Below are positions 34,691 through 45,074 of a stretch of 45,535 nucleotides of DNA, in pieces. Where the stretch lies: NCBI GenBank assembly GCA_943329925.2, contig CALQFT020000009.1:1-45535 (forward strand), written 5' to 3'. The notes beneath the pieces are model-generated. The model was not told where the DNA came from, did no database searches, and worked only from the letters and a program-made list of their open reading frames with translations. The stretch is from Opitutus sp. GAS368. Its GTDB lineage: Bacteria; Verrucomicrobiota; Verrucomicrobiia; Chthoniobacterales; Chthoniobacteraceae. The position numbers and the translations under genes were made by a program. Position 1 is the stretch's first letter, and every line of letters begins with the position of its first letter.

Positions 34691-34739
34691 TTCAGAGACA
34701 GACAACCTGAGATAGTACGCCCTAAGCGCGCCCCACAAA

Positions 34740-34777
34740 CTGTCGACACTTTCAGCTTGCCTGAACTGTCGACACTT
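34740..34777 (+). promoter_or_regulatory. Two direct copies of a TGTCGACA palindrome, probable GntR operators
   Basis: CTGTCGACACTT occurs at 34740-34751 and again at 34766-34777, 26 bp apart, ending 13 bp before the start codon of the GntR gene. The core TGTCGACA is a perfect palindrome, the symmetry expected for a dimeric GntR-type regulator. The position suggests autoregulation; control of the downstream cluster is inferred. Confidence 0.65.
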
Positions 34778-34790
34778 GTAGGGTGGCGCC

Positions 34791-35510
34791 ATGTCCACCG
34801 GCTCCCTTTCTGTCCCATCGCTCCCCCGCCGCAATCTTGCCTTGGAGACGGTTCAGTCTCTGCGGGACCAGATTATCTCCGGCGATCTTCCCCCGGGGAG
34901 CGCCCTGGCAGAACCGGTCCTCGCCAGACAATTTGGAGTCAGCCGAGCCCCCGTGCGCGAGGCGCTTATTGAGTTGGAGCGCGAGGGGCTCGTTCAATTT
35001 GAAAAGACTGGCCGCACCAAGGTCCGAACGCTTACAGAAACCGACTTCCGTGAAATCATGGAAGCCCGGGTAGCGTTAGAAAGTACGGCGGCAAAGCGGG
35101 CGGCGCAGCATTGGAGCCCGGACGACTCCGCCGTGCTCGAGGCCAACATTGAGGCCCAATCGAAGACATCAAGCCTCTCCGAGCTCAGCCGCCTAGATGT
35201 GGAACTGCACGCCTACATCATGGAGCGCAGCGGCAACCGGCGGCTGCTCAGCCTTTGGCAAAGCATCCGGTGGCAGTTTGAGATGTGCCTCGCCTCCACG
35301 CATCGCATCCAGAAGTCTCTGGAGTGCACTCCGCGCGACATTACCGTAAACTCCCACCGCCGCCTCCTCTGCGCGCTGGAATCGGGCAAGCCTGAATTCG
35401 CCGCCCAAACCATGGCCTCCCATATTGAAAACAGTATGGAATGGTCGCCCATCTACCCGTTTGAGGAAACGGATTCCTCCGCTAAACGGGAAGCTCTTCA
35501 GGATGCGTGA
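34791..35510 (+). CDS. GntR-family regulator, FadR/FCD subfamily
   Basis: The 239-residue protein has an N-terminal winged helix (residues about 15-80: LALETVQSLRDQIISGDLPP, VLARQFGVSRAPVREALIEL, EREGLVQ) and a helical FCD effector domain. FCD metal/ligand residues are visible in RLDVELHAYIMERSGNRRLL, the later NSHRRLLCALESG and ASHIENSM. FCD regulators commonly sense organic acids such as sugar acids, lactate or pyruvate derivatives, which fits the downstream 2-hydroxyacid and 2-oxoacid enzymes. It is the first gene of the cluster, 152 nt before the beta-propeller gene. Confidence 0.93.
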   Translation: MSTGSLSVPSLPRRNLALETVQSLRDQIISGDLPPGSALAEPVLARQFGVSRAPVREALIELEREGLVQFEKTGRTKVRTLTETDFREIMEARVALESTAAKRAAQHWSPDDSAVLEANIEAQSKTSSLSELSRLDVELHAYIMERSGNRRLLSLWQSIRWQFEMCLASTHRIQKSLECTPRDITVNSHRRLLCALESGKPEFAAQTMASHIENSMEWSPIYPFEETDSSAKREALQDA

Positions 35511-35662
35511 GCTTGAAACGAAGACTCCTACGCAGTCTGCAAAAGTGCGTCCTTTCGTAAATATTCGATCCGACTTTTCCCGTATGACACTGCCCCCAAG
35601 GTGCTGAAAATTCCGCTCCTCCCACCTGGAGCGCCTGCCGCAACCCTCACCCCACCCTCCCC

Positions 35663-36565
35663 ATGAAACTCTGCCTTAACCGCATCCTGATCAGCGCCGT
35701 CGCGTTGGTTTTCAGCCTTCATTGCAATTCTTCTGCCGCAGAAATACCGATTAAACACCGGCTTCTTTTTACCGAGTACGGCAAAGGTCCAAACCGGTTT
35801 ATCGAACTGGATGCCGACGGCAAAATGGTTTGGGAACTCAAAACACCCAGTACCACCGTTATCTTTCAGTGCTTGCCGAACCAAAATATTCTATTTGGGT
35901 ACGGTGGCAGTCCCACGGGGGTGCGCGAAATCACAGCTCGTGGTGAGATGGTGTTTGATTACGTCAGCAAATCCCATCAGGTATTCGGTTGCGAGAGACT
36001 GGCAAACGGAAACACGTTGGTGGCGGAACAAGGCCCGTGTCAGGCCGTAGAAGTAAACCCGAAAGGGGAGATTGTGCACATCACGCCACTGCACACGAAC
36101 GTGGAAGGCCATCATCTCCAGGTCCGCAACATTCACAAGCTGGCCAACGGAAACATCCTCTCTGCACACGAGGGTGAGGGCGCGGTACGCGAAGTGGACC
36201 CGAGTGGCAAAGTTGTGTGGGAATACACAGGTGTTACTAACACAGGCGACGCGCAACGACTCCCCAATGGCAATACTCTGATCTGCTGCGGGACGCAAAA
36301 GCGCCTCATCGAGGTGACTCCGGAGAAACAAATCGTCTGGGATTTCAGCGACAAGGATGCTCCAGATCTCAATATCACCTGGATCTCCAGCCTCCAGCAA
36401 CTCGCCAATGGAAACTTGCTGTTGGGAAATTTCATCCGAGGAAAAGAAGGCAGTGGCGCTCATGCCATTGAGATCACTCATGACAAGGAAAAGAAGATCG
36501 TCTGGAAATGGGGAGACCACACCCTCATCAAATCACTCACAACGGTACGCGTGATCGGCGAATAG
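35663..36565 (+). CDS. Secreted beta-propeller protein (PQQ/ASST-like repeats)
   Basis: The 300-residue product has a signal peptide (MKLCLNRILISAVALVFSLH, cleavage near SSA-AE). Its repeated blade pattern is FIELDADGKMVWEL, AVEVNPKGEIVHI, VREVDPSGKVVWEYTG and LIEVTPEKQIVWDFS, each followed by a 'L-A/P-N-G-N-x-L' strand (LANGNTLV, LANGNILS, LPNGNTLI, LANGNLLL). This gives about five to six blades with PQQ-like Trp positions. Such periplasmic propellers may bind a carbohydrate or act as scaffolds; no catalytic motif was seen. It stands 25 nt before the dehydrogenase gene. Confidence 0.8.
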   Translation: MKLCLNRILISAVALVFSLHCNSSAAEIPIKHRLLFTEYGKGPNRFIELDADGKMVWELKTPSTTVIFQCLPNQNILFGYGGSPTGVREITARGEMVFDYVSKSHQVFGCERLANGNTLVAEQGPCQAVEVNPKGEIVHITPLHTNVEGHHLQVRNIHKLANGNILSAHEGEGAVREVDPSGKVVWEYTGVTNTGDAQRLPNGNTLICCGTQKRLIEVTPEKQIVWDFSDKDAPDLNITWISSLQQLANGNLLLGNFIRGKEGSGAHAIEITHDKEKKIVWKWGDHTLIKSLTTVRVIGE

Positions 36566-36590
36566 CAGCAAACTCCCCCAAAAAAAGTTT

Positions 36591-37571
36591 ATGCCCAAAG
36601 TTATCATCACCGATTACACGTTTCCCGACCTCGAAATCGAAGCGGCGATATTGGAGCCGCACACAGAATTGGTTTCCGTAAAAGAGAAGCTCCCCCCTGC
36701 GGAACTGGCGGAACTCGTGCACGACGCAGACGCCGTCATTGTGCAGTTTGCCTCGATAAACCCGGAAGTCATCAGTGCGATGCAGAAGGCAAAAGTAATC
36801 GTGCGTTATGGAATCGGTGTCGACAACGTCGACTTGGCGGCGGCAAAGCAACGGGGTATCCCGGTCTGTAACATCCCAGATTACTGCGTTGATGAAGTCG
36901 CAGATCACGCCTTGGCCTTCATCTTGGCGAGCACCCGGCAGGTTCTTCCAAATGCGCTCCACGTCCGAGCCGGGCACTGGGGATTAGCCCTCCCAGTAGG
37001 TTCCATGCAAGCCCTTAAGTATTTGACCGTCGGCGTTGTGGGTTTCGGCCGCATTGGACGGGAGGTGGTAACTCGCCTGCTTGCATTCAAGGCCAAAGTC
37101 CTCGTCTTTGATCCTCTCGTGAGCGCAGCGCAGATCACCCAATTCGGTGCAGAACCCTGTGACCTTGACGCTCTGCTAGCGCGCAGCGACATCGTAACGC
37201 CCCACTGCCCCTCCACGGCTGCGACCAAACGCATGTTTAATGCGGAAACCTTTGCCAAGATGAAGCCTGACGCGGTCTTCATCAACGTGAGCCGGGGCGA
37301 CCTGACCGATAGCGGAGCTCTGCTGGAGGCACTTCAGAGTGGAAAATTGGGCGCGGCGGCGCTCGACGTTTTCGACCCCGAGCCCATCCCGGCAAACCAC
37401 CCCCTTTTGACAATGCCCAATGTGATCCTAGCCGCGCACGTTGCCTCCGTTAGCCCCCGGGCGGTGAAAACCTTGCGGGAAACCGCTGCAAAGATTGCGC
37501 TGAGTGCCGTGCGCGGCGAAGCGCTGTCCAATATTGTAAACGGAGTTGTCCCAAACCCTGGAGCCTTATGA
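36591..37571 (+). CDS. D-isomer-specific 2-hydroxyacid dehydrogenase (SerA/CtBP-like)
   Basis: The 326-residue protein has the split catalytic and NAD-binding domains of the family: VRYGIGVDNVDLAAAKQRGI, the Rossmann motif VGVVGFGRIGREV (about 148-160) with acidic Asp at the end of the second strand (VLVFDP), and the catalytic Arg in INVSRGDLTDSGAL. It also has the Glu in DVFDPEPIPANHPL and the His in AAHVASVSP. It oxidises a D-2-hydroxyacid to the 2-oxo acid with NAD(P), or the reverse. The short C-terminus lacks an ACT domain, so it is not a classical regulatory SerA. In this cluster it is the obvious producer of a 2-oxo acid for the E1/E2 complex. Confidence 0.92.
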   Translation: MPKVIITDYTFPDLEIEAAILEPHTELVSVKEKLPPAELAELVHDADAVIVQFASINPEVISAMQKAKVIVRYGIGVDNVDLAAAKQRGIPVCNIPDYCVDEVADHALAFILASTRQVLPNALHVRAGHWGLALPVGSMQALKYLTVGVVGFGRIGREVVTRLLAFKAKVLVFDPLVSAAQITQFGAEPCDLDALLARSDIVTPHCPSTAATKRMFNAETFAKMKPDAVFINVSRGDLTDSGALLEALQSGKLGAAALDVFDPEPIPANHPLLTMPNVILAAHVASVSPRAVKTLRETAAKIALSAVRGEALSNIVNGVVPNPGAL

Positions 37572-37700
37572 AGGCAACTTCCGGCCACTTATTAAATGTG
37601 AGATTTTTGCTCACTTCACAGTCCCAACCTTCTCGGTAGATGCACAAACGGCGTCGCCGGTAGCCAGCCAAAGGGCAGCGCAAAACAACCCAGGCAACCC

Positions 37701-39005
37701 ATGAACAAACAAAATACGCCAGTCGATCCCGCCGCCCTCCGACGAAAGGTTGCGGTGCGGGTGCTGCCCTTGGTTTTCGTCCTCTACATTGTCTCCTATT
37801 TGGATCGGGCAAACGTTGCCTTCGCAAAGCTGCGGATGGCGGGAGACCTGCAGTTTTCGGAGGCCGTTTTTGGTTTTGGAATCGGCGTTTTCTTTATTGG
37901 TTACCTCTTCTTAGAAATCCCGGGCGCCCTTCTCGTGGAGCGATGGAGTGCCAGAAAGTGGTTTGCTCGCATTTTAATCACGTGGGGAATCATTTCCGCG
38001 GCAACGGCTTTCGTTAAGACGCCCAACCAGTTTTATGTCGTCAGGTTTTTCTTGGGTGTAGCAGAGGCGGGATTTTTCCCAGGGATAATCGTCTATTTTA
38101 CGCATTGGTTTGCGCAGGGCGATCGAACGCGGGCCTTGTCGGGATTACTGGTGGCCGTGCCCTTTAGCCTTGCTCTGGGCGCTCCGGTCTCCTCGCTACT
38201 TCTGGATGTACACTGGCTTGGGTTGATGGGCTGGCAATGGCTTTTCCTTGTCGAGAGCGCCCCCGCAATTGTTCTTGGATTTGTGGTCCTGCGCTGGCTG
38301 GCAGATCGTCCCCGGAGCGCCCGCTGGCTCACCCAAGATGAGCGAGACTACCTAGAGGGAGTGCTTGCTCTGGAAGCCAGCGCCAAAGAGGCGGCGGGAA
38401 AAATCAGCATCGGCCAAGCCCTCCAACTGCGAAACGTCTGGCTGCTGGTTCTCGGTGTGCTCATTGCAAACAGCGGCGGCTACGCCCTCACCTTCTGGCT
38501 GCCGACAACGGTAAAGAATCTCTCAGGCGGCTCCGACCAACAGACCCTGCTTTATAGCGGACTCTACTATGCGTGCGGCATCGTGAGTGTGATTCTCTCG
38601 GGGCAATCGGCGGACCGCACTGGCGACCGCAAATGGCACGCAGTCGGAGGAATGCTCGCCACCGGACTGTTCCTGTGCTGCAGCGTAATTCCGGGACAGT
38701 CTTTCGCTCTCACGATGATGTGGCTGTGTCTGACGGCGTTCGGTGCGTTTTTTTGGATCTCTCCATTTTGGACGCTTCCGACGCTGACGCTCAACGCATC
38801 GGCGGCGGCTGTCGCCATTGGCTTGATTAATATGGCGGCGAATCTCGCCGGCTATCTGGGCAATCATGCGACGGGATGGTTGCGCTCCCACGGCTATGGA
38901 GAAACCGCCTGCCTGCTGTTTCTAGCAACCTGTTTTATTGTCGGCGCAGGCTTTGTGAGCCTGGTTCGCGTCGCGGCACGGCGGCCGGCCCAAGTTTTAT
39001 CATGA
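37701..39005 (+). CDS. MFS importer, anion:cation symporter (ACS) type
   Basis: The 434-residue, 12-helix transporter has the ACS family signature after the first helix (VSYLDRANVAFAKLRM), the inter-helix GFGIGVFFIGYLFLEIPGAL and RFFLGVAEAGFFPGI, and the second-half motif ILSGQSADRTGDRKWH. ACS members carry organic anions such as tartrate, glucarate, galactonate, phthalate or pantothenate. The position between dehydrogenases suggests it imports the cluster's substrate. Its stop overlaps the start of the E1 gene as ATGA. It is separated from the preceding dehydrogenase by 129 nt, long enough for an internal promoter. Confidence 0.93.
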   Translation: MNKQNTPVDPAALRRKVAVRVLPLVFVLYIVSYLDRANVAFAKLRMAGDLQFSEAVFGFGIGVFFIGYLFLEIPGALLVERWSARKWFARILITWGIISAATAFVKTPNQFYVVRFFLGVAEAGFFPGIIVYFTHWFAQGDRTRALSGLLVAVPFSLALGAPVSSLLLDVHWLGLMGWQWLFLVESAPAIVLGFVVLRWLADRPRSARWLTQDERDYLEGVLALEASAKEAAGKISIGQALQLRNVWLLVLGVLIANSGGYALTFWLPTTVKNLSGGSDQQTLLYSGLYYACGIVSVILSGQSADRTGDRKWHAVGGMLATGLFLCCSVIPGQSFALTMMWLCLTAFGAFFWISPFWTLPTLTLNASAAAVAIGLINMAANLAGYLGNHATGWLRSHGYGETACLLFLATCFIVGAGFVSLVRVAARRPAQVLS

Positions 39006-40993
39006 AGTCAAAACCTCAACCCCTTAACGAGCTAGAACTCTATCGGAAGATGCTGGTCATTCGCATCGTCGAAGAGCGTCTCGCCAAGTCCCACCAGCGC
39101 GGCCTCATTCACGGCGCGTGTCACACTTATGTGGGGCAGGAAGCCATCGCAACCGGCGTATGCGCCCATCTGCGCTCGGAAGACGCTATTTTCAGCACCC
39201 ACCGCGGCCACGGTCACGCACTAGCCAAAGGCCTTGAGCCAGGATCCCTTATAGCAGAGTTGTACGGCCGCGAGACGGGCTGCTCCAGAGGTCGAGGCGG
39301 CTCCATGCACCTTTTCGCTCCCGAAATCGGAATGCTCGGCACAAGCGGGATCGTAGGGCCGTGTATTCTTCAAGCCGCTGGGGCTGGCTACAGCTTCAAG
39401 CTGATGAAAACCGACAACGTCGGCGTCGCATTTTTTGGCGATGGCGCGGCCAATAACGGCGCCTTCCACGAGGGGCTGAATATGGCCAGCATCTGGAATC
39501 TACCCGTTTTGTTCGTGTGCGAGAACAACCAGTTTGCGACGGAGGTGCCCTTCGCTTCGGTTGCGGGCAACCCAAGTGTTGCCGCGCGCGGCGCCGCCTA
39601 TGGAATGCATTCCGTCGAACTCGATGGCAACGACGTGTTAGCGGTGGAGGCTGCCGCACGCGAGGCTGTGCAAAGGGCCCGCTCAGGAGGCGGGCCGACG
39701 TTACTAGAGTGTAAAACCTACAGAACGCGGCCCCATGCCGAAGGGATGGGAGATTTCACCTACCGAACCAAGGACGATGTGGAGCAGTGGAAAACGCGCT
39801 GCCCAATCAAAAGACTGCGAGAGCATCTGCTTACTGGGAAAAAAGCCACTGCGGCCCAGCTTGAATCCATTGAACAAGAAGTGCATGACCTCACCGAAGT
39901 GGCGCATCTATTTGCCGAGAACAGCCCCTACCCCAGCGCGGAATCCGCCACCTCTCACGTTTACGCCGCCACCTCTCTTGTTGCAGCGCGGGATGTACCC
40001 GCTCCCACGGCATCGGAGCGGGAGTTATCTTTCATGAAAGCCACGCTCGAGGCTTTGAGCGAAGAAATGGCCAGAAACCCTAAGATATTTGTTCTTGGCG
40101 AGGGCATCGGAGCCCGCGGCGGAAACTTTGCCACAACAAACGGACTCTTTGCCTTATACGGTCCGGAGCGACTGCGAGACACGCCGATCTGCGAAAGGGG
40201 GTTCGTCGGTCTGGCCGGGGGCGCGGCGATGAGCGGAACCAGGCCAGTTGTCGACTTTATGTTCGCAGATTTCGTCCTGGATGCCGCCGGCGAAATCATC
40301 AACCAAATTGCCAAGATCCAGTACATGAGCAGCGGTCGCCTCGAGATGCCCGTTCTTTTACGAGGGTGCATCGGCATTGGTCACGCCGCGGCCACCCATC
40401 ACTCGGGAAGTTACTACGCCATGTACGCAAACTTCCCGGGCTTGCGGGTTGTTGTGCCCTCGTCTCCGCGGGATGCAAAGGGTCTCCTCAAAACCGCTCT
40501 AACCTGCGGCGACCCCGTGCTTTTTCTGGAACATCGAGAGCTTATGGCGACAAAAGGACCGGTGCCCGAAGGCGAGTATTACATCGATTTTGGACAGGCT
40601 GCCGTTGTGCGCCAAGGATCGGATGTTACGGTGGTGGCGCTTGCGCTGATGGTGCATAAGACGCTTGCCGCGTCCGAGTTGCTTGAAGTCGACGGCATCT
40701 CGGTAGAGCTCATCGATCCCCGCACCGTGGCGCCGCTGGATATTGAAACCATCTTGAAATCGGTAAAGAAAACCGGGCGCTTGTTGATTGTAGACGAGGC
40801 TTTTGGCCCCTTCGGCATCGGGGCTGAGATTGCCGCACAGTTGGCCGATATCGGGTTTGATGAACTGGACGCACCGATACGTCGCCTCAATGGAAAAGCA
40901 TCCCCTACTCCCTATAGTCCCACCCTCGAAGCGGCGGTTGTGCCCAGTATCGACTTAATCGCTCAAACCATCCGCGATCTTTACGCAGAATAA
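39002..40993 (+). CDS. Fused E1 alpha-beta subunit of a 2-oxoacid (pyruvate/acetoin-type) dehydrogenase
   Basis: The 663-residue protein joins two normally separate subunits. Residues about 1-325 are E1 alpha, with MLVIRIVEERLAKSHQRG, RGGSMHLF and the thiamine-diphosphate motif GDGAANNGAFHEG ending at the NN of CENNQFA. Residues about 340-663 are E1 beta, with EGIGARGGNFATTNGL, CERGFVGLAGGAAMSG, GHAAATHHSG and VVVPSSPRDAKGLL. It decarboxylates a 2-oxo acid and passes the acyl group to a lipoyl arm of E2. An upstream in-frame extension to 38876 is antisense-like and overlaps the MFS gene. E2 follows 14 nt later; no E3 is in the cluster. Confidence 0.93.
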   Translation: MKSKPQPLNELELYRKMLVIRIVEERLAKSHQRGLIHGACHTYVGQEAIATGVCAHLRSEDAIFSTHRGHGHALAKGLEPGSLIAELYGRETGCSRGRGGSMHLFAPEIGMLGTSGIVGPCILQAAGAGYSFKLMKTDNVGVAFFGDGAANNGAFHEGLNMASIWNLPVLFVCENNQFATEVPFASVAGNPSVAARGAAYGMHSVELDGNDVLAVEAAAREAVQRARSGGGPTLLECKTYRTRPHAEGMGDFTYRTKDDVEQWKTRCPIKRLREHLLTGKKATAAQLESIEQEVHDLTEVAHLFAENSPYPSAESATSHVYAATSLVAARDVPAPTASERELSFMKATLEALSEEMARNPKIFVLGEGIGARGGNFATTNGLFALYGPERLRDTPICERGFVGLAGGAAMSGTRPVVDFMFADFVLDAAGEIINQIAKIQYMSSGRLEMPVLLRGCIGIGHAAATHHSGSYYAMYANFPGLRVVVPSSPRDAKGLLKTALTCGDPVLFLEHRELMATKGPVPEGEYYIDFGQAAVVRQGSDVTVVALALMVHKTLAASELLEVDGISVELIDPRTVAPLDIETILKSVKKTGRLLIVDEAFGPFGIGAEIAAQLADIGFDELDAPIRRLNGKASPTPYSPTLEAAVVPSIDLIAQTIRDLYAE

Positions 40994-41007
40994 ACGACTA
41001 CCCCACC

Positions 41008-42219
41008 ATGCCCATTCACATCACATTGCCGAGGCTTGGCTGGTCCATGGAGGAAGGCATCTTCCTAGAATGGCTCAAAAAGAGCGGGGACTATGTCAAA
41101 GACGGGGAGCCCCTTTTCACACTGGAAAGCGACAAAGCCGCTCAGGAAGTCGAATCAACAGACTCGGGCATTTTGCATATCCCCTCCTATGGAGCGGCCC
41201 CAGGCGCGAAAGTGAAAGTGGGCGCGGTTTTAGGGTACCTCCTTGCCTCAGGTGAACTCCCTCCGGACGAGCAAACCTCTTCTCCTCCCCTCCCCAGCAG
41301 CCCCGCGCCCGTTCCTCACCATTTGCCCCTCGGGGAAGGCGCCGCTGCAGACACTGGAAGCCTCAAACACAAACTCCAAAGCGACACGCCTGCAAGCCCC
41401 CGTGCGAGGCGCGCAGCCAAGGCGACTGGGGTTGATTTAGCAGCGCTCCAACCCACCGGTAAAGGCGGACGCATTCGCGAATGTGATGTCCTCGCGGCCT
41501 CTCTAGAGCTTGGTGGAACCGGCATGAAATGGCGGACAACTCCCACCAGTCCCCTTCGCCGCACTATTGCCGAGCGTATGGAGCACAGCAAGCGCAACAC
41601 CGTTCCCGTCACCATAACAACTCGCTGTGATGCAACAGGTATGGTGTCCCTGCGCACCCAACTCAAAGCGGCTGCCGAATTTAGGGTTCCGAGCTTCATC
41701 GATATCATTACCAAGCTTGCCGCAGGCGCACTTAAGAGCCATCCGCACCTGAGTGGACGCTGGGCAGACGGCGCCATTCAACTTCCCGAGGCAATTCATA
41801 TCGGTGTCGCCGTGGATACCGAACTGGGTCTTATGGTGCCGGTTTTGCGCGACGTGGCGGGACTGGCATTGTCGCAGGTGTCGCAAAAATCACAGGAACT
41901 TTTCGAGCGCGCCCGCCGCGGCGGGCTCAAAGCCACGGAGATGCGCGACGCATGTTTTACGATCACAAATTTGGGAGGCTTGGGTGTTGAGGCCTTCACC
42001 CCAGTGATTAATTACCCCGAGACCGCGATTCTAGGCGTGGGTGCAATTGTTCGAGAAGCTGTTTCCCTTGAAGACGGCACCCTTGTAAGTCGGCAACAAT
42101 TGACGCTGAGTCTCACGTTTGACCATCGTGCGATTGATGGCGCTCCCGCGGCCCGCTTCCTTCAAACTTTGCGGCAGCGACTTGAACACCCTCTTGTGTG
42201 GTTGCTGAACGAGCGCTAG
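41008..42219 (+). CDS. Dihydrolipoamide acyltransferase (E2) of the 2-oxoacid dehydrogenase complex
   Basis: The 403-residue product has a single lipoyl domain (residues 1-80) with the lipoylated Lys43 in LESDKAAQEVES and the WSMEEG lead-in. A Pro/Ser-rich linker (about 85-125) follows, then a peripheral subunit-binding domain (about 130-165: SPRARRAAKATGVDLAALQP, GKGGRIRECDV) and the catalytic domain with FTITNLGGLGVEAFTPVINY and the active-site DHRAIDGAP (His373, Asp377). It moves the acyl group from lipoamide to CoA. It pairs with the fused E1 upstream; the E3 dihydrolipoamide dehydrogenase must be supplied from elsewhere. Confidence 0.95.
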   Translation: MPIHITLPRLGWSMEEGIFLEWLKKSGDYVKDGEPLFTLESDKAAQEVESTDSGILHIPSYGAAPGAKVKVGAVLGYLLASGELPPDEQTSSPPLPSSPAPVPHHLPLGEGAAADTGSLKHKLQSDTPASPRARRAAKATGVDLAALQPTGKGGRIRECDVLAASLELGGTGMKWRTTPTSPLRRTIAERMEHSKRNTVPVTITTRCDATGMVSLRTQLKAAAEFRVPSFIDIITKLAAGALKSHPHLSGRWADGAIQLPEAIHIGVAVDTELGLMVPVLRDVAGLALSQVSQKSQELFERARRGGLKATEMRDACFTITNLGGLGVEAFTPVINYPETAILGVGAIVREAVSLEDGTLVSRQQLTLSLTFDHRAIDGAPAARFLQTLRQRLEHPLVWLLNER

Positions 42220-42244
42220 GGGCCCATTTTCTAGCCTTCTTATC

Positions 42245-43024
42245 ATGCAAATAAACCTCAAAGACCAAGTCGCCCTTGTAACCGGCGCGGCAAATGGCAT
42301 CGGAAAAGCCATCGCAGACCGCCTCGCCGCCAATGGAGCGACCGTCTTTTACACCGACATCGACAAAACCGCGGTGGAACACGCAGCACAAGAAGGAGGA
42401 GGCTACCCGCTCGAATTAAATGTCACGGATAGCGCCCAGATTGAGTCCGCCATGAGCGCCGTACTGGAGCGCTTTCAGCGACTCGACATTCTTGTAAACA
42501 ATGCGGGAATTAACACGATGGCGCACCGCGTCAGTATCGATGAATTTCCCCGGGCTGAATGGGACAGAATCATCGCGGTAGATTTGACTGCCGCCTACGA
42601 AATGAGCCGCGCCGCCTCTAGAATCATGAAAAAGCAGCGCCATGGGAGGATTATTAACATTTCCTCGATTGCCGGCGTGGTGCCGCTCCGGTTGCAATGC
42701 GCCTTCACTGCGGCCAAAGCCGGCCTCAACAACCTCACCCGTGCGATGGCAATAGAGCTCGGAAGCGACGGGATACTTGTAAACGCGATTGCTCCCGGCT
42801 CGATTATGACCGATGGGACCCGCAAACTGTTCTACGGAAAAGACGGCCTTTTCCACGAAAATGTTCAGCGCCTCATTGACCACATCCCCCTAGGGCGCCC
42901 TGGAACAACCGAAGAAATAGCGCACGCCGCGCTTTTTCTGGCTGCCCCGGAAAACACCTACCTCACCGGCCACATCCTTGTGGTTGATGGCGGTTGGACG
43001 GCCGGCTACCACCGCGATTTCTAA
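42245..43024 (+). CDS. Short-chain dehydrogenase/reductase-like protein with Tyr-to-Phe active site
   Basis: The 259-residue protein is a classical SDR by length and layout: TGAANGIGKAIADRLAANGA cofactor loop at residue 14-20, LVNNAGIN (about 88), the catalytic-Ser strand IINISSIAG, and C-terminal LTGHILVVDGGWTAGYH. In the YxxxK signature the Tyr is replaced: the sequence is CAFTAAKAG, coded TTC. Lys is kept. Loss of the Tyr normally abolishes hydride-transfer chemistry, so the protein may be inactive, use another acid, or belong to an unusual subfamily. It is 25 nt after E2 and 47 nt before the lactonase. Confidence 0.9.
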   Translation: MQINLKDQVALVTGAANGIGKAIADRLAANGATVFYTDIDKTAVEHAAQEGGGYPLELNVTDSAQIESAMSAVLERFQRLDILVNNAGINTMAHRVSIDEFPRAEWDRIIAVDLTAAYEMSRAASRIMKKQRHGRIINISSIAGVVPLRLQCAFTAAKAGLNNLTRAMAIELGSDGILVNAIAPGSIMTDGTRKLFYGKDGLFHENVQRLIDHIPLGRPGTTEEIAHAALFLAAPENTYLTGHILVVDGGWTAGYHRDF

Positions 43025-43071
43025 GAAACTCGCCCTTGTAAAACATCCACACCCCGCAACCATACAGAACC

Positions 43072-44118
43072 ATGATCCCCCAACTCAATGTAACTCGGCG
43101 CAACTTCCTAGCTGCTGCGGCAACCGCTGTCTCTGCCACAACGTCATGTTTTGCACGCGATTGGAGCGGCAAAGAACCCATACGCTATCCGGATCCTGAC
43201 ATCCGCTCGCTTGATCCGCGCTTTGATAAATACAAGATCGGGAATACGCAGATCAAAAGGTTATGGACCGGTGCGCTGTGGGCCGAAGGCGTGGCATGGA
43301 GCGGTGTCGGTCGATTTTTGCTCTGGAGCGACATTCCCAACAACCGTCAAATGCGTTGGCTGGAGGAAGATTCCCATGTGAGCGTCTTTCGGTCCCCGTC
43401 TGGAAACAGCAATGGGAACACGTTCGACTGGCAGGGGCGGCAAATCTCCTGTGAACACGGTGGCCGCCGGGTGGTGCGTTACGAGTTGAACGGCAGCACA
43501 ACGGTTCTGGCTGAGAACTGGGAGGGGAAACCGTTTAACGCGCCGAATGACGTCGTCGTGCATCCAGATGGTGGCATTTGGTTTACAGATCCTGGTTACG
43601 GCAGCATGGGGAACTACGAAGGCAACAAGGGCGAGCTACAAATCAAAGAGGCGGTTTACCGCATCGACCCCGCCACAGCAAAAATTCAACTCGTCACTGA
43701 TGACAATCATAAGCCGAACGGAATCTGTTTTTCGCCCGATTACAAAAAACTCTACATCAGCGACACAGGAGGTCCGGATCCAAAGGGAATAAAGATATAC
43801 GATGTTGTCGAGGGCACTAAATTAAAAGGCGGCCGCCTCTTTACAAACATGCCGCTACAGGGAAGCAAGGACGGCCTTGCCGACGGGATCCGCACAGATG
43901 TGGACGGCAATCTTTGGGCGAGCGCAGGCTGGGGCGGCGAAGGCTTTGACGGGGTCCATATCTTCTCCCCGGACGGCACGCGCATCGGGCAGATTTTACT
44001 CCCTGAACCTGGCTCCAACCTCTGCTTTGGCGGGGCGCGAAGGAACCGACTATTTGTGAGTGCCGGCCAGTCCGTGTACTCCATACACGTTGAAGCTCAG
44101 GGCTCCCACGTAAGTTGA
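43072..44118 (+). CDS. SMP-30/gluconolactonase-like protein with Tat-type signal
   Basis: The 348-residue protein has a leader with twin Arg (NVTRRNFLAAAATAVSATTS) and a six-bladed SMP-30/LRE-like propeller. Metal-ligand candidates are Glu in LWAEGVAWS, Asn in NAPNDVVVHPDGG, Asn in KPNGICFSPD and Asp in LADGIRTDVDG. Relatives hydrolyse sugar lactones such as gluconolactone in the periplasm. Its place at the end of the cluster suggests that the imported compound may arise from an aldonolactone outside the membrane. The substrate is not known. Confidence 0.9.
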   Translation: MIPQLNVTRRNFLAAAATAVSATTSCFARDWSGKEPIRYPDPDIRSLDPRFDKYKIGNTQIKRLWTGALWAEGVAWSGVGRFLLWSDIPNNRQMRWLEEDSHVSVFRSPSGNSNGNTFDWQGRQISCEHGGRRVVRYELNGSTTVLAENWEGKPFNAPNDVVVHPDGGIWFTDPGYGSMGNYEGNKGELQIKEAVYRIDPATAKIQLVTDDNHKPNGICFSPDYKKLYISDTGGPDPKGIKIYDVVEGTKLKGGRLFTNMPLQGSKDGLADGIRTDVDGNLWASAGWGGEGFDGVHIFSPDGTRIGQILLPEPGSNLCFGGARRNRLFVSAGQSVYSIHVEAQGSHVS

Positions 44119-44164
44119 ACCGCTCAGGTTTTAGACAAACTTTGACGCTCCAAAAACTCAGACA

Positions 44165-44239
44165 GTCCTTGCGGAGGTGGGGCTCCGCGTTCCCAGGTGC
44201 TGAGGTCTTTTTATCATCCATAAATCTAAAAGAGATGGC
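44165..44239 (-). repeat. Dispersed composite repeat: GC-rich unit plus left half of the 86-89 bp unit
   Basis: Bases 44179-44197 match the GC-rich core (GGGGCTCCGCGTTCCCAGG), continuing on the minus strand as ACCTCCGC-AAGGACT, which resembles AGCTCCGC-TTGGACT of the 32861 copy. Bases 44198-44239 match the left half of the 13837 and 26971 copies (GCTGAGGTCTTTTTATCATC, then CATAAATCTAAAAGAGATGG). It overlaps the start codon and Shine-Dalgarno-like region of the next gene. Confidence 0.75.
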
Positions 44240-45074
44240 ATTAAATCCTTTATTCCAAAAGACTGCTACGGTGCGACTTCTGGCGGCTTGCTTCCTGATT
44301 GTTTATTCGAGCATCCAAACACGGGCGGATGAAATTCCACCGGGGATTCAAAGCTCCCTCGCCATACTCAAGCAGGATCCGGCTTCGGTAAGCGTTAATC
44401 CCTTGGTCTTTCTTGGTGAACCGCTTTTCCTTGCAGCAATCTCCGCGGGCCCAAAAGTTAGGGAGTGGACTTTTGATGCGGCGGGAGTGCCCCTTAGCGT
44501 TGAACTATTTAATGAAGAGCTTCCGCAGCCTGTTCAAGTCGCTTTATCAAAGTTACTTACAGGAGGCAATACGCTGGGCGGTTTGGTAAGGACCTTTGAG
44601 GGAGGGGCGTTAATTTTTGAAATCGACCTTGAGACGCCCAAGGGCCCGAAATCCATATCTTATTTCGCTGATGGGAAGCTATTCAGCAAAGAGATTTCAG
44701 AAGCAGAAGTTCCTGCGCCTGTGCTTAAAACGCTCAAGCGCCGCCTCAACGGTGAACCTCTCGAAAAGTGCTATCGCACCGAGGAAAACGGACAAGTTTA
44801 TTTCACGGCGGGCATCGCCCATCCCACCGGCACAGTGTGGCTCACTTTTGATGCTGATGGTGCTGTTGCTGAACGAGAAGAGCGCATCGAATGGGATGCC
44901 GCACCACCCGCGCTCCAGACCGCGCTACTTAACCGGTTGAACACAAAGGAACGTGTCCGGATTATTCGGAAAACGGAGGATCGTGAAGTAAGCTTTGAGG
45001 TTTGGGCCTTCACCCCCGAGAAGCTGGATATTTATTCGGCTTCCTCGGAGGGGGCGCTTGAAAAACTTCGTTAA
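44235..45074 (+). CDS. Secreted protein with three PepSY-like repeats
   Basis: From ATG 44235 the product is 279 residues with a signal peptide (LLAACFLIVYSSIQTRA-DE). An earlier in-frame start at 44115 would run through the repeat and lacks a leader. Three repeats of roughly 70-80 residues are visible: FDAAGVPLSVELFNEELPQP, YFADGKLFSKEISEAEVPAP and FDADGAVAEREERIEWDAAP, each followed by a 'V/L-x-x-A/T-L-x-x-x-L' helix and strands. This resembles PepSY-like/BLIP-fold inhibitory domains. Function is unknown. The start codon lies in a dispersed repeat. Confidence 0.7.
   Translation: MALNPLFQKTATVRLLAACFLIVYSSIQTRADEIPPGIQSSLAILKQDPASVSVNPLVFLGEPLFLAAISAGPKVREWTFDAAGVPLSVELFNEELPQPVQVALSKLLTGGNTLGGLVRTFEGGALIFEIDLETPKGPKSISYFADGKLFSKEISEAEVPAPVLKTLKRRLNGEPLEKCYRTEENGQVYFTAGIAHPTGTVWLTFDADGAVAEREERIEWDAAPPALQTALLNRLNTKERVRIIRKTEDREVSFEVWAFTPEKLDIYSASSEGALEKLR

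Follow-up and report, generated by a model that had tools for sequence, protein, structure and literature searches.

A 45,535-nucleotide stretch of DNA from Opitutus sp. GAS368 (the window; contig C9 of the source genome, G000) carries a cluster of eight collinear genes, all on the forward strand at 34791-44118, downstream of two exact 12-bp repeats. The cluster is a real, conserved, catabolic unit and is probably controlled by its own GntR/FCD regulator. Its thiamine enzyme, a fused E1 alpha-beta protein, and the adjoining E2 are assigned here, with a confidence just short of even, as a putative acyloin (alpha-hydroxyketone) dehydrogenase of the acetoin type. This assignment is favoured because of a motif in E1, its score against the cut-off of a pyruvate dehydrogenase (PDH) profile, and its position in phylogenetic trees.

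Class of the fused E1

In an alignment with anchor sequences, the fused E1s read Ser-Thr-His-Arg-Gly-His-Gly-His at a place where the rows with a PDH or branched-chain 2-oxoacid dehydrogenase (BCKDH) name or assignment have Tyr/Phe-Arg, the diphosphate-site motif of E1 alpha in those enzymes (AYRAHG in human PDH E1 alpha). THRGHGH was found in 80 of 80 E1s of the genome-wide set, with His67-Arg68 in the window protein, and is taken by us as a marker of acetoin dehydrogenase E1, backed here by one anchor operon from E. faecalis that contains genes for a sigma-54 regulator, E3, E1 alpha, E1 beta, E2, and butanediol dehydrogenase. In a 53-row panel, the E. faecalis E1 and five E1s encoded after an NAD(P)H/homoserine-dehydrogenase-like gene also have His-Arg. 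A second motif, HSGSYY in the beta part, is common to many fused E1s and E. faecalis AcoB, the other fused E1s having HSGNYY or near variants.

Against TIGR03182, the NCBIfam equivalog for PDH E1 alpha (cut-off 393.85), the fused E1 scored 347.7 bits and remained below the cut-off, whereas the PDH of the same genome passed with 401.1. The E. faecalis E1 alpha (343) and an E1 linked to a DXP-reductoisomerase-like (DRL) gene (383) also fell below it. In a first tree, built from 17 of the 80 loci plus the window, the 18 fused E1s grouped together (100/100), separate from a PDH clade (100/99) that comprised Sphingomonas and 12 relatives; a Streptomyces fused E1 fell outside. In a second tree of 31 rows, three of them on long branches, ten PDH/BCKDH rows together with L006, an E1 pair on contig C34 of G000, were split from the acetoin-side rows with support of 93/88. 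The Streptomyces protein (L145:5971-7947, plasmid-borne) reads TYRGHG and lies on the acetoin side on a long branch; its gene has FAH-family, short-chain dehydrogenase/reductase (SDR), amidohydrolase, and scyllo-inosose dehydrogenase genes as neighbours.

Besides the C34 pair, G000 encodes its own PDH E1 alpha and beta on contig C2, 89-91% identical to a relative's PDH, which makes the cluster E1/E2 a dedicated paralogue. The housekeeping PDH was ruled out on this ground as the identity of the cluster enzymes, in agreement with an earlier note made from the sequence of the window, and a branched-chain E1 was ruled out by tree and motif. The same note had described E1 as a 2-oxoacid dehydrogenase, which the motif, the NCBIfam cut-off, and the tree make doubtful rather than exclude, as they put E1 with the acetoin-type enzymes.

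Several points weigh against an acyloin dehydrogenase. The fused E1 does pass NF006667, a PDH E1 beta subfamily profile (338.5; cut-off 321), although this profile is not discriminating, because E. faecalis AcoB (337.7) and the DRL-linked beta subunit (409.4) pass it too. The branch separating the two sides of the second tree is short, and its support lies under the level that the tree program counts as strong. On that tree the motif label takes two changes, not one, because the Streptomyces sequence, which has Tyr, belongs to the acetoin side; L006, an unassigned E1 placed with the PDH rows, carries Ile-Arg. Butanediol-dehydrogenase neighbourhoods yielded no further acetoin anchor: three annotated ones (of 128 records with a match) contained no adjacent E1, and an unannotated fourth, L169, gave none by tblastn. 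The E. faecalis anchor was itself assigned by its neighbourhood alone, and the step from the His motif to acyloin cleavage is suggested by sequence comparison. Enzymes that oxidise 2-hydroxyacids, from as many as four unrelated families, are encoded beside E1, which fits a 2-oxo acid substrate better, and the SDR that would be the candidate for forming a hydroxyketone lacks the catalytic Tyr.

Organization and conservation of the cluster

Gene calls in the window were made from open reading frames (ORFs) with Pfam and NCBIfam profiles, and gave the following features.

34739-34776, no strand: two exact ACTGTCGACACT copies with core palindrome TGTCGACA, a possible operator just upstream of the GntR gene
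34791-35510, + strand: GntR-family regulator with FCD domain (ORF; PF00392 and PF07729 both matched)
35663-36565, + strand: beta-propeller, Mala_s_1-like/ASST-like, probably secreted (Pfam; signal peptide by eye)
36591-37571, + strand: D-isomer-specific 2-hydroxyacid dehydrogenase, HADH (NAD-binding and catalytic domains, PF02826 and PF00389, over cut-off)
37701-39005, + strand: major facilitator superfamily (MFS) transporter of the anion:cation symporter (ACS) type (Pfam/NCBIfam)
39002-40993, + strand: fused E1 alpha-beta, thiamine enzyme with THRGHGH motif at His67 (ORF, Pfam, alignment)
41008-42219, + strand: E2 with catalytic motif HRAIDG (one lipoyl domain, PF00364; E3-binding, PF02817; acyltransferase, PF00198; all over cut-off)
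42245-43024, + strand: SDR-like protein with Phe154 at the catalytic-Tyr position, FTAAK (Pfam, motif alignment)
42704-42706, + strand: codon of Phe154 in this E2-adjacent SDR (motif alignment)
43072-44118, + strand: SMP-30/gluconolactonase-like protein (ORF, Pfam) with a twin-arginine-type N-terminus by eye

The genes are separated by gaps of 14-152 bp, with a single overlap of 4 bp between the MFS stop and the E1 start, for which ATG 39002 is most likely; the same overlap is found in L040, L041, and L042. The eight genes of the earlier note are collinear and on one strand, and number eight with GntR included and seven from 35663 on; the beta-propeller was left out of the cluster makeup given in its title. 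HADH reaches no NCBIfam cut-off, the best NCBIfam match of the MFS protein, a D-galactonate transporter, is below its cut-off, and the nearest solved relative of the SMP-30 protein is an exported gluconolactonase. The HRxxDG motif of E2 is kept in 65 of 73 relatives. As noted before, E3 is missing inside the cluster, and the window holds no sigma-54 activator; three Pyr_redox_dim proteins are encoded elsewhere in G000, E3 being one possibility for them. The product of the gene upstream of GntR passes the NCBIfam cut-off for a class II fructose-bisphosphate aldolase, and an ORF without Pfam or NCBIfam match follows the lactonase at 44115-45074. Neither has a match in the 16 relative stretches compared, and both are probably separate from the cluster.

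The palindromic direct repeats that the earlier note ascribed to the GntR gene are present as the two ACTGTCGACACT copies, which start at 34739 and 34765, 26 bp apart, and GntR may bind to them. With up to two mismatches there are four ACTGTCGACACT matches (two sites, each on both strands); shuffled sequences gave 2.0 on average, and four or more in 14 of 100 cases, a test that is neither independent nor strong because the pattern was taken from the window. Two TGTATACA-type sites also lie immediately before the gene for a regulator in L060 that is 65% identical to GntR. When 161 loci were searched for the operator core, only 13 gave matches, which were scattered and either single or palindromic.

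Among 97 genomes of the order, a fused-E1 orthologue (identity of at least 70%) occurs in 14, the source genome included, and an HADH orthologue (E ≤ 1e-75) in 12, all among these 14 (Fisher p 1.3e-13, uncorrected for relatedness); G001 (93% complete) and G033 (73% complete) have the fused E1 and no HADH match. A scan of named genomes with E1 gave at least 80 loci at 68-85% identity, mainly from Verrucomicrobiota and Planctomycetota, at least nine of the 80 being contigs already in the 97-genome set. Neighbours were counted by ORF clustering on gene maps of the longest or best-supported ORFs, drawn with no gene caller, and stricter counts were taken from the 38 of 80 loci with enough flank. 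Near E1 in the 80 loci are E2 (72), MFS (35), SDR family f2 (33), HADH (31), FAH (21), SDR family f6 (21), MQO (19), SMP-30 (16), propeller (15), double Cyclase (14), LDH2 (9), DHDPS (7), epimerase (6), and FGGY kinase (5) genes, and in 11 a transporter without Pfam match that appears Nramp-like by eye. The well-flanked loci contain E2 in 36, HADH in 25, MQO or LDH2 in 20, lactonase or Cyclase in 20, and FAH, DHDPS, or FGGY in 15; an E2-type f2 or an f6 SDR is present in 31, and E1, E2, and SDR are the tightest core of the cluster. The E1 is fused in 77 of the 80 ORF maps and split in L071, L075, and L113. The recurrence of these neighbours bears out the conserved neighbourhood, and the lactonase, importer, and HADH that the earlier note had joined to E1 do accompany it in many relatives.

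None of the 38 loci has both MQO (in 15) and LDH2 (in 5; p 0.07, not significant), and one has both SMP-30 (in 13) and Cyclase (in 8; p 0.15, not significant), with phylum as a confounder in both cases. The protein at L062:5941-7665 has two Cyclase (PF04199) stretches and, by eye, a signal-like N-terminus, and is a possible stand-in for the SMP-30 lactonase. Three metagenome-assembled genome records (L055, L069, and L075) are titled Klebsiella pneumoniae or Akkermansia muciniphila; their E1s are 76-82% identical to that of the window, and the titles look wrong.

Proposed route and alternatives

Classical SDR catalysis uses Ser-Tyr-Lys, with the last two residues in a YxxxK motif. The window SDR departs from this motif, with Phe154 for Tyr and Lys158 kept, which speaks against an ordinary dehydrogenase, and all 21 f6 SDRs read YSMAM, with Met for the catalytic Lys. 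The 41 f2 SDRs comprise 18 Phe and 23 Tyr forms; ten of the latter, with the standard YxxxK motif, group in a separate clade (100/100), seven of the ten sharing a locus with an FAH gene, and the 31 E2-type f2 SDRs comprise 18 Phe and 13 Tyr forms. Matches in the relatives L038-L053, some of which are the same contigs, have Phe in 9 of 11. In an SDR tree that includes the window, the Phe label needs four changes, at least two on strongly supported branches, and Phe forms are present in both phyla. By record title, f6 is mostly, not solely, planctomycete; an E2-type f2 and an f6 SDR share none of the 80 loci and none of the 38 well-flanked ones, where they number 21 and 10, with phylum again a confounder. 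The sequences suggest either a reaction without need for the Tyr/Lys acid/base pair or SDRs that are not dehydrogenases. The interchange of Phe and Tyr within a conserved SDR offers a natural experiment on the role of the tyrosine.

Relatives carry further genes between lactonase and MFS, for an Mqo-family enzyme, a DHDPS-family enzyme, and an FAH-family hydrolase, to which L040 adds an FGGY kinase, a KDPG-aldolase-family protein, and a second SDR. The absence of kinase and aldolase on which the earlier note had remarked is true of the window but, because relatives' clusters hold FAH, DHDPS, FGGY, or KDPG-aldolase genes, it is a trait of the window and not of the pathway. The 2-hydroxyacid-oxidising genes beside E1 vary by genome among HADH, MQO, and LDH2, with GlcD/GlcF-like genes in L115. 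No enolase-type sugar-acid dehydratase was seen among the neighbours scanned, some being left unscanned. The FAH and DHDPS families themselves contain dehydratases; NCBIfam lists one for the DHDPS-family protein, below cut-off, and the best match of the FAH protein, a diketo-deoxyrhamnonate hydrolase, is likewise below cut-off. Neither an Mqo nor an Ldh_2 match was obtained in G000 itself (93.5% complete), which encodes four MR_MLE_C proteins over cut-off. Its two FAH homologues are on other contigs, and an SDR-like ORF immediately precedes each of them.

We infer the reaction, substrate, and order of steps by analogy. A lactone would probably be opened outside the cell by SMP-30 and the resulting acid imported by the ACS carrier. 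By analogy with acetoin dehydrogenase, the thiamine diphosphate of E1 would attack an alpha-hydroxyketone at its ketone group, and the C-C bond that joins this group to the carbinol carbon would be cleaved, with loss of an aldehyde; the acyl group would pass to the E2 lipoate and on to CoA, a shared E3 re-oxidising the lipoate. HADH, with MQO or LDH2 in relatives, could oxidise a 2-hydroxyacid before or after the E1 step. It is conceivable, if doubtful, that a sugar acid derived from a lactone is broken down here by an acyloin-dehydrogenase pathway not yet described. The acetoin-type complex would cut a hydroxyketone made from the acid into an acyl-CoA and an aldehyde, for instance a 5-oxo-6-deoxyhexonate into acetyl-CoA and a four-carbon aldehyde acid, so that no dehydratase would be needed, and SDR-fold proteins with a lost catalytic residue would have a perhaps non-redox part. 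A literature search, with subscription journals mostly outside its reach, found no description of the cluster. The nearest solved structures were also tried as guides to the substrate; those of E1, HADH, FAH, LDH2, DHDPS, SDR, and SMP-30 gave family-level matches only, and the f6 SDR had no solved-structure match at 1e-40. Should acetoin-type complexes, which are known to act on a small acyloin, also cleave sugar-derived hydroxyketones, Verrucomicrobia and Planctomycetes would have an additional route from sugar acids to CoA thioesters, and genes of this kind would show that the name "pyruvate dehydrogenase" can mislead.

The strongest competitor, somewhat less probable than acyloin cleavage, is the route of the earlier note, in which the acid, once imported, is oxidised at C2 by HADH to a 2-oxo acid, perhaps 3-hydroxylated, that E1/E2 then decarboxylates to an acyl-CoA. 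The confinement of the 12 HADH orthologues to genomes with the fused E1 is in its favour, as are the genes for D-HADH, MQO, LDH2, and GlcD/GlcF-like proteins that adjoin E1 in one locus or another, which it would lead one to expect, and the conserved His245 of the fused E1 alpha, which aligns with the active-site-loop His of PDH. The acetoin-type motif in all 80 E1s, the failed PDH cut-off, and the tree position argue against it, and 12 of the 38 well-flanked loci have none of HADH, MQO, and LDH2 nearby. Either reading would be partly accommodated by a 2-oxo acid that carries a hydroxyl group. What survives of the catabolic route first drawn is a conserved, probably regulated unit; the 2-oxoacid step and the pathway without aldolase or kinase fared less well, as did a reading of the SDR as an ordinary dehydrogenase.

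An improbable explanation is a second, pathway-linked PDH, for which sugar acids would be cleaved to pyruvate and lactate or an aldehyde by SDR plus FAH, by DHDPS, or by kinase plus KDPG aldolase, lactate would be oxidised to pyruvate by HADH, MQO, or LDH2, and E1/E2 would form acetyl-CoA. The FAH, DHDPS, and KDPG-aldolase genes of relatives' clusters, the lactate and malate enzymes contained in the Mqo and Ldh_2 families, and a RhaT-like symporter that adjoins E1 in L076 are consistent with it, but motif and cut-off speak against PDH function, a housekeeping PDH is present, cleavage genes occur in only 15 of the 38 well-flanked loci, and the 93.5%-complete G000 lacks Mqo and Ldh_2 matches. 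That unrelated genes merely lie side by side is very unlikely, for although gene order varies and HADH or SDR is missing nearby in some loci, the genes co-occur and recur in at least two phyla.

Comparison with known systems

The housekeeping PDH on contig C2 shares the E1_dh and transketolase-type domains with the cluster E1, but has the Tyr-Arg motif and separate subunits, falls in a separate clade, and passes the PDH E1-alpha equivalog. The diketo-hydrolase route of 6-deoxy sugar acids combines an SDR with an FAH enzyme, and in several relatives' clusters an ordinary YxxxK SDR does lie beside FAH; in contrast, the window has no SDR+FAH pair, and the two FAH homologues of G000 lie elsewhere.

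The DRL-linked E1/E2 of alphaproteobacterial plasmids is 45-48% identical and has the same His-Arg motif, but its subunits are separate and a DRL_cat protein stands in place of HADH and SDR. In L134 (7586-12250), L135, L136, L137, and L139, E1/E2 directly follows the NAD(P)H/homoserine-dehydrogenase-like gene, identified as DRL by Pfam DRL_cat in L134, the one scanned; sugar phosphotransferase-system genes lie near in L135, L137, and L139, and ABC importers in the other two (a sugar ABC importer in L134). These contexts hint that the DRL-linked E1/E2 may perform thiolytic cleavage of 1-deoxy-xylulose phosphate or a related compound. PMC3847144 distinguishes three clades of DXR-II-like sequences: DXR-II itself and two oxidoreductase families that had not been characterised before.

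PMC10185769 places acetoin complexes in the 2-oxoacid dehydrogenase family and describes pipeline names as potentially misleading, deletion of AcoB1 from a complex that had been annotated as PDH having caused loss of growth on acetoin. The cluster resembles the acetoin dehydrogenase complex (AcoA/AcoB/AcoC) in its THRGHGH motif, in HSGSYY as in E. faecalis, in the adjoining E2, and in a nearby alcohol-dehydrogenase-type gene. It differs from that complex in its fused E1, which forms a clade of its own and is 43% identical to the E. faecalis proteins, in having neither E3 nor a sigma-54 activator in the window, and in the presence of a lactonase, HADH, and an acid importer.

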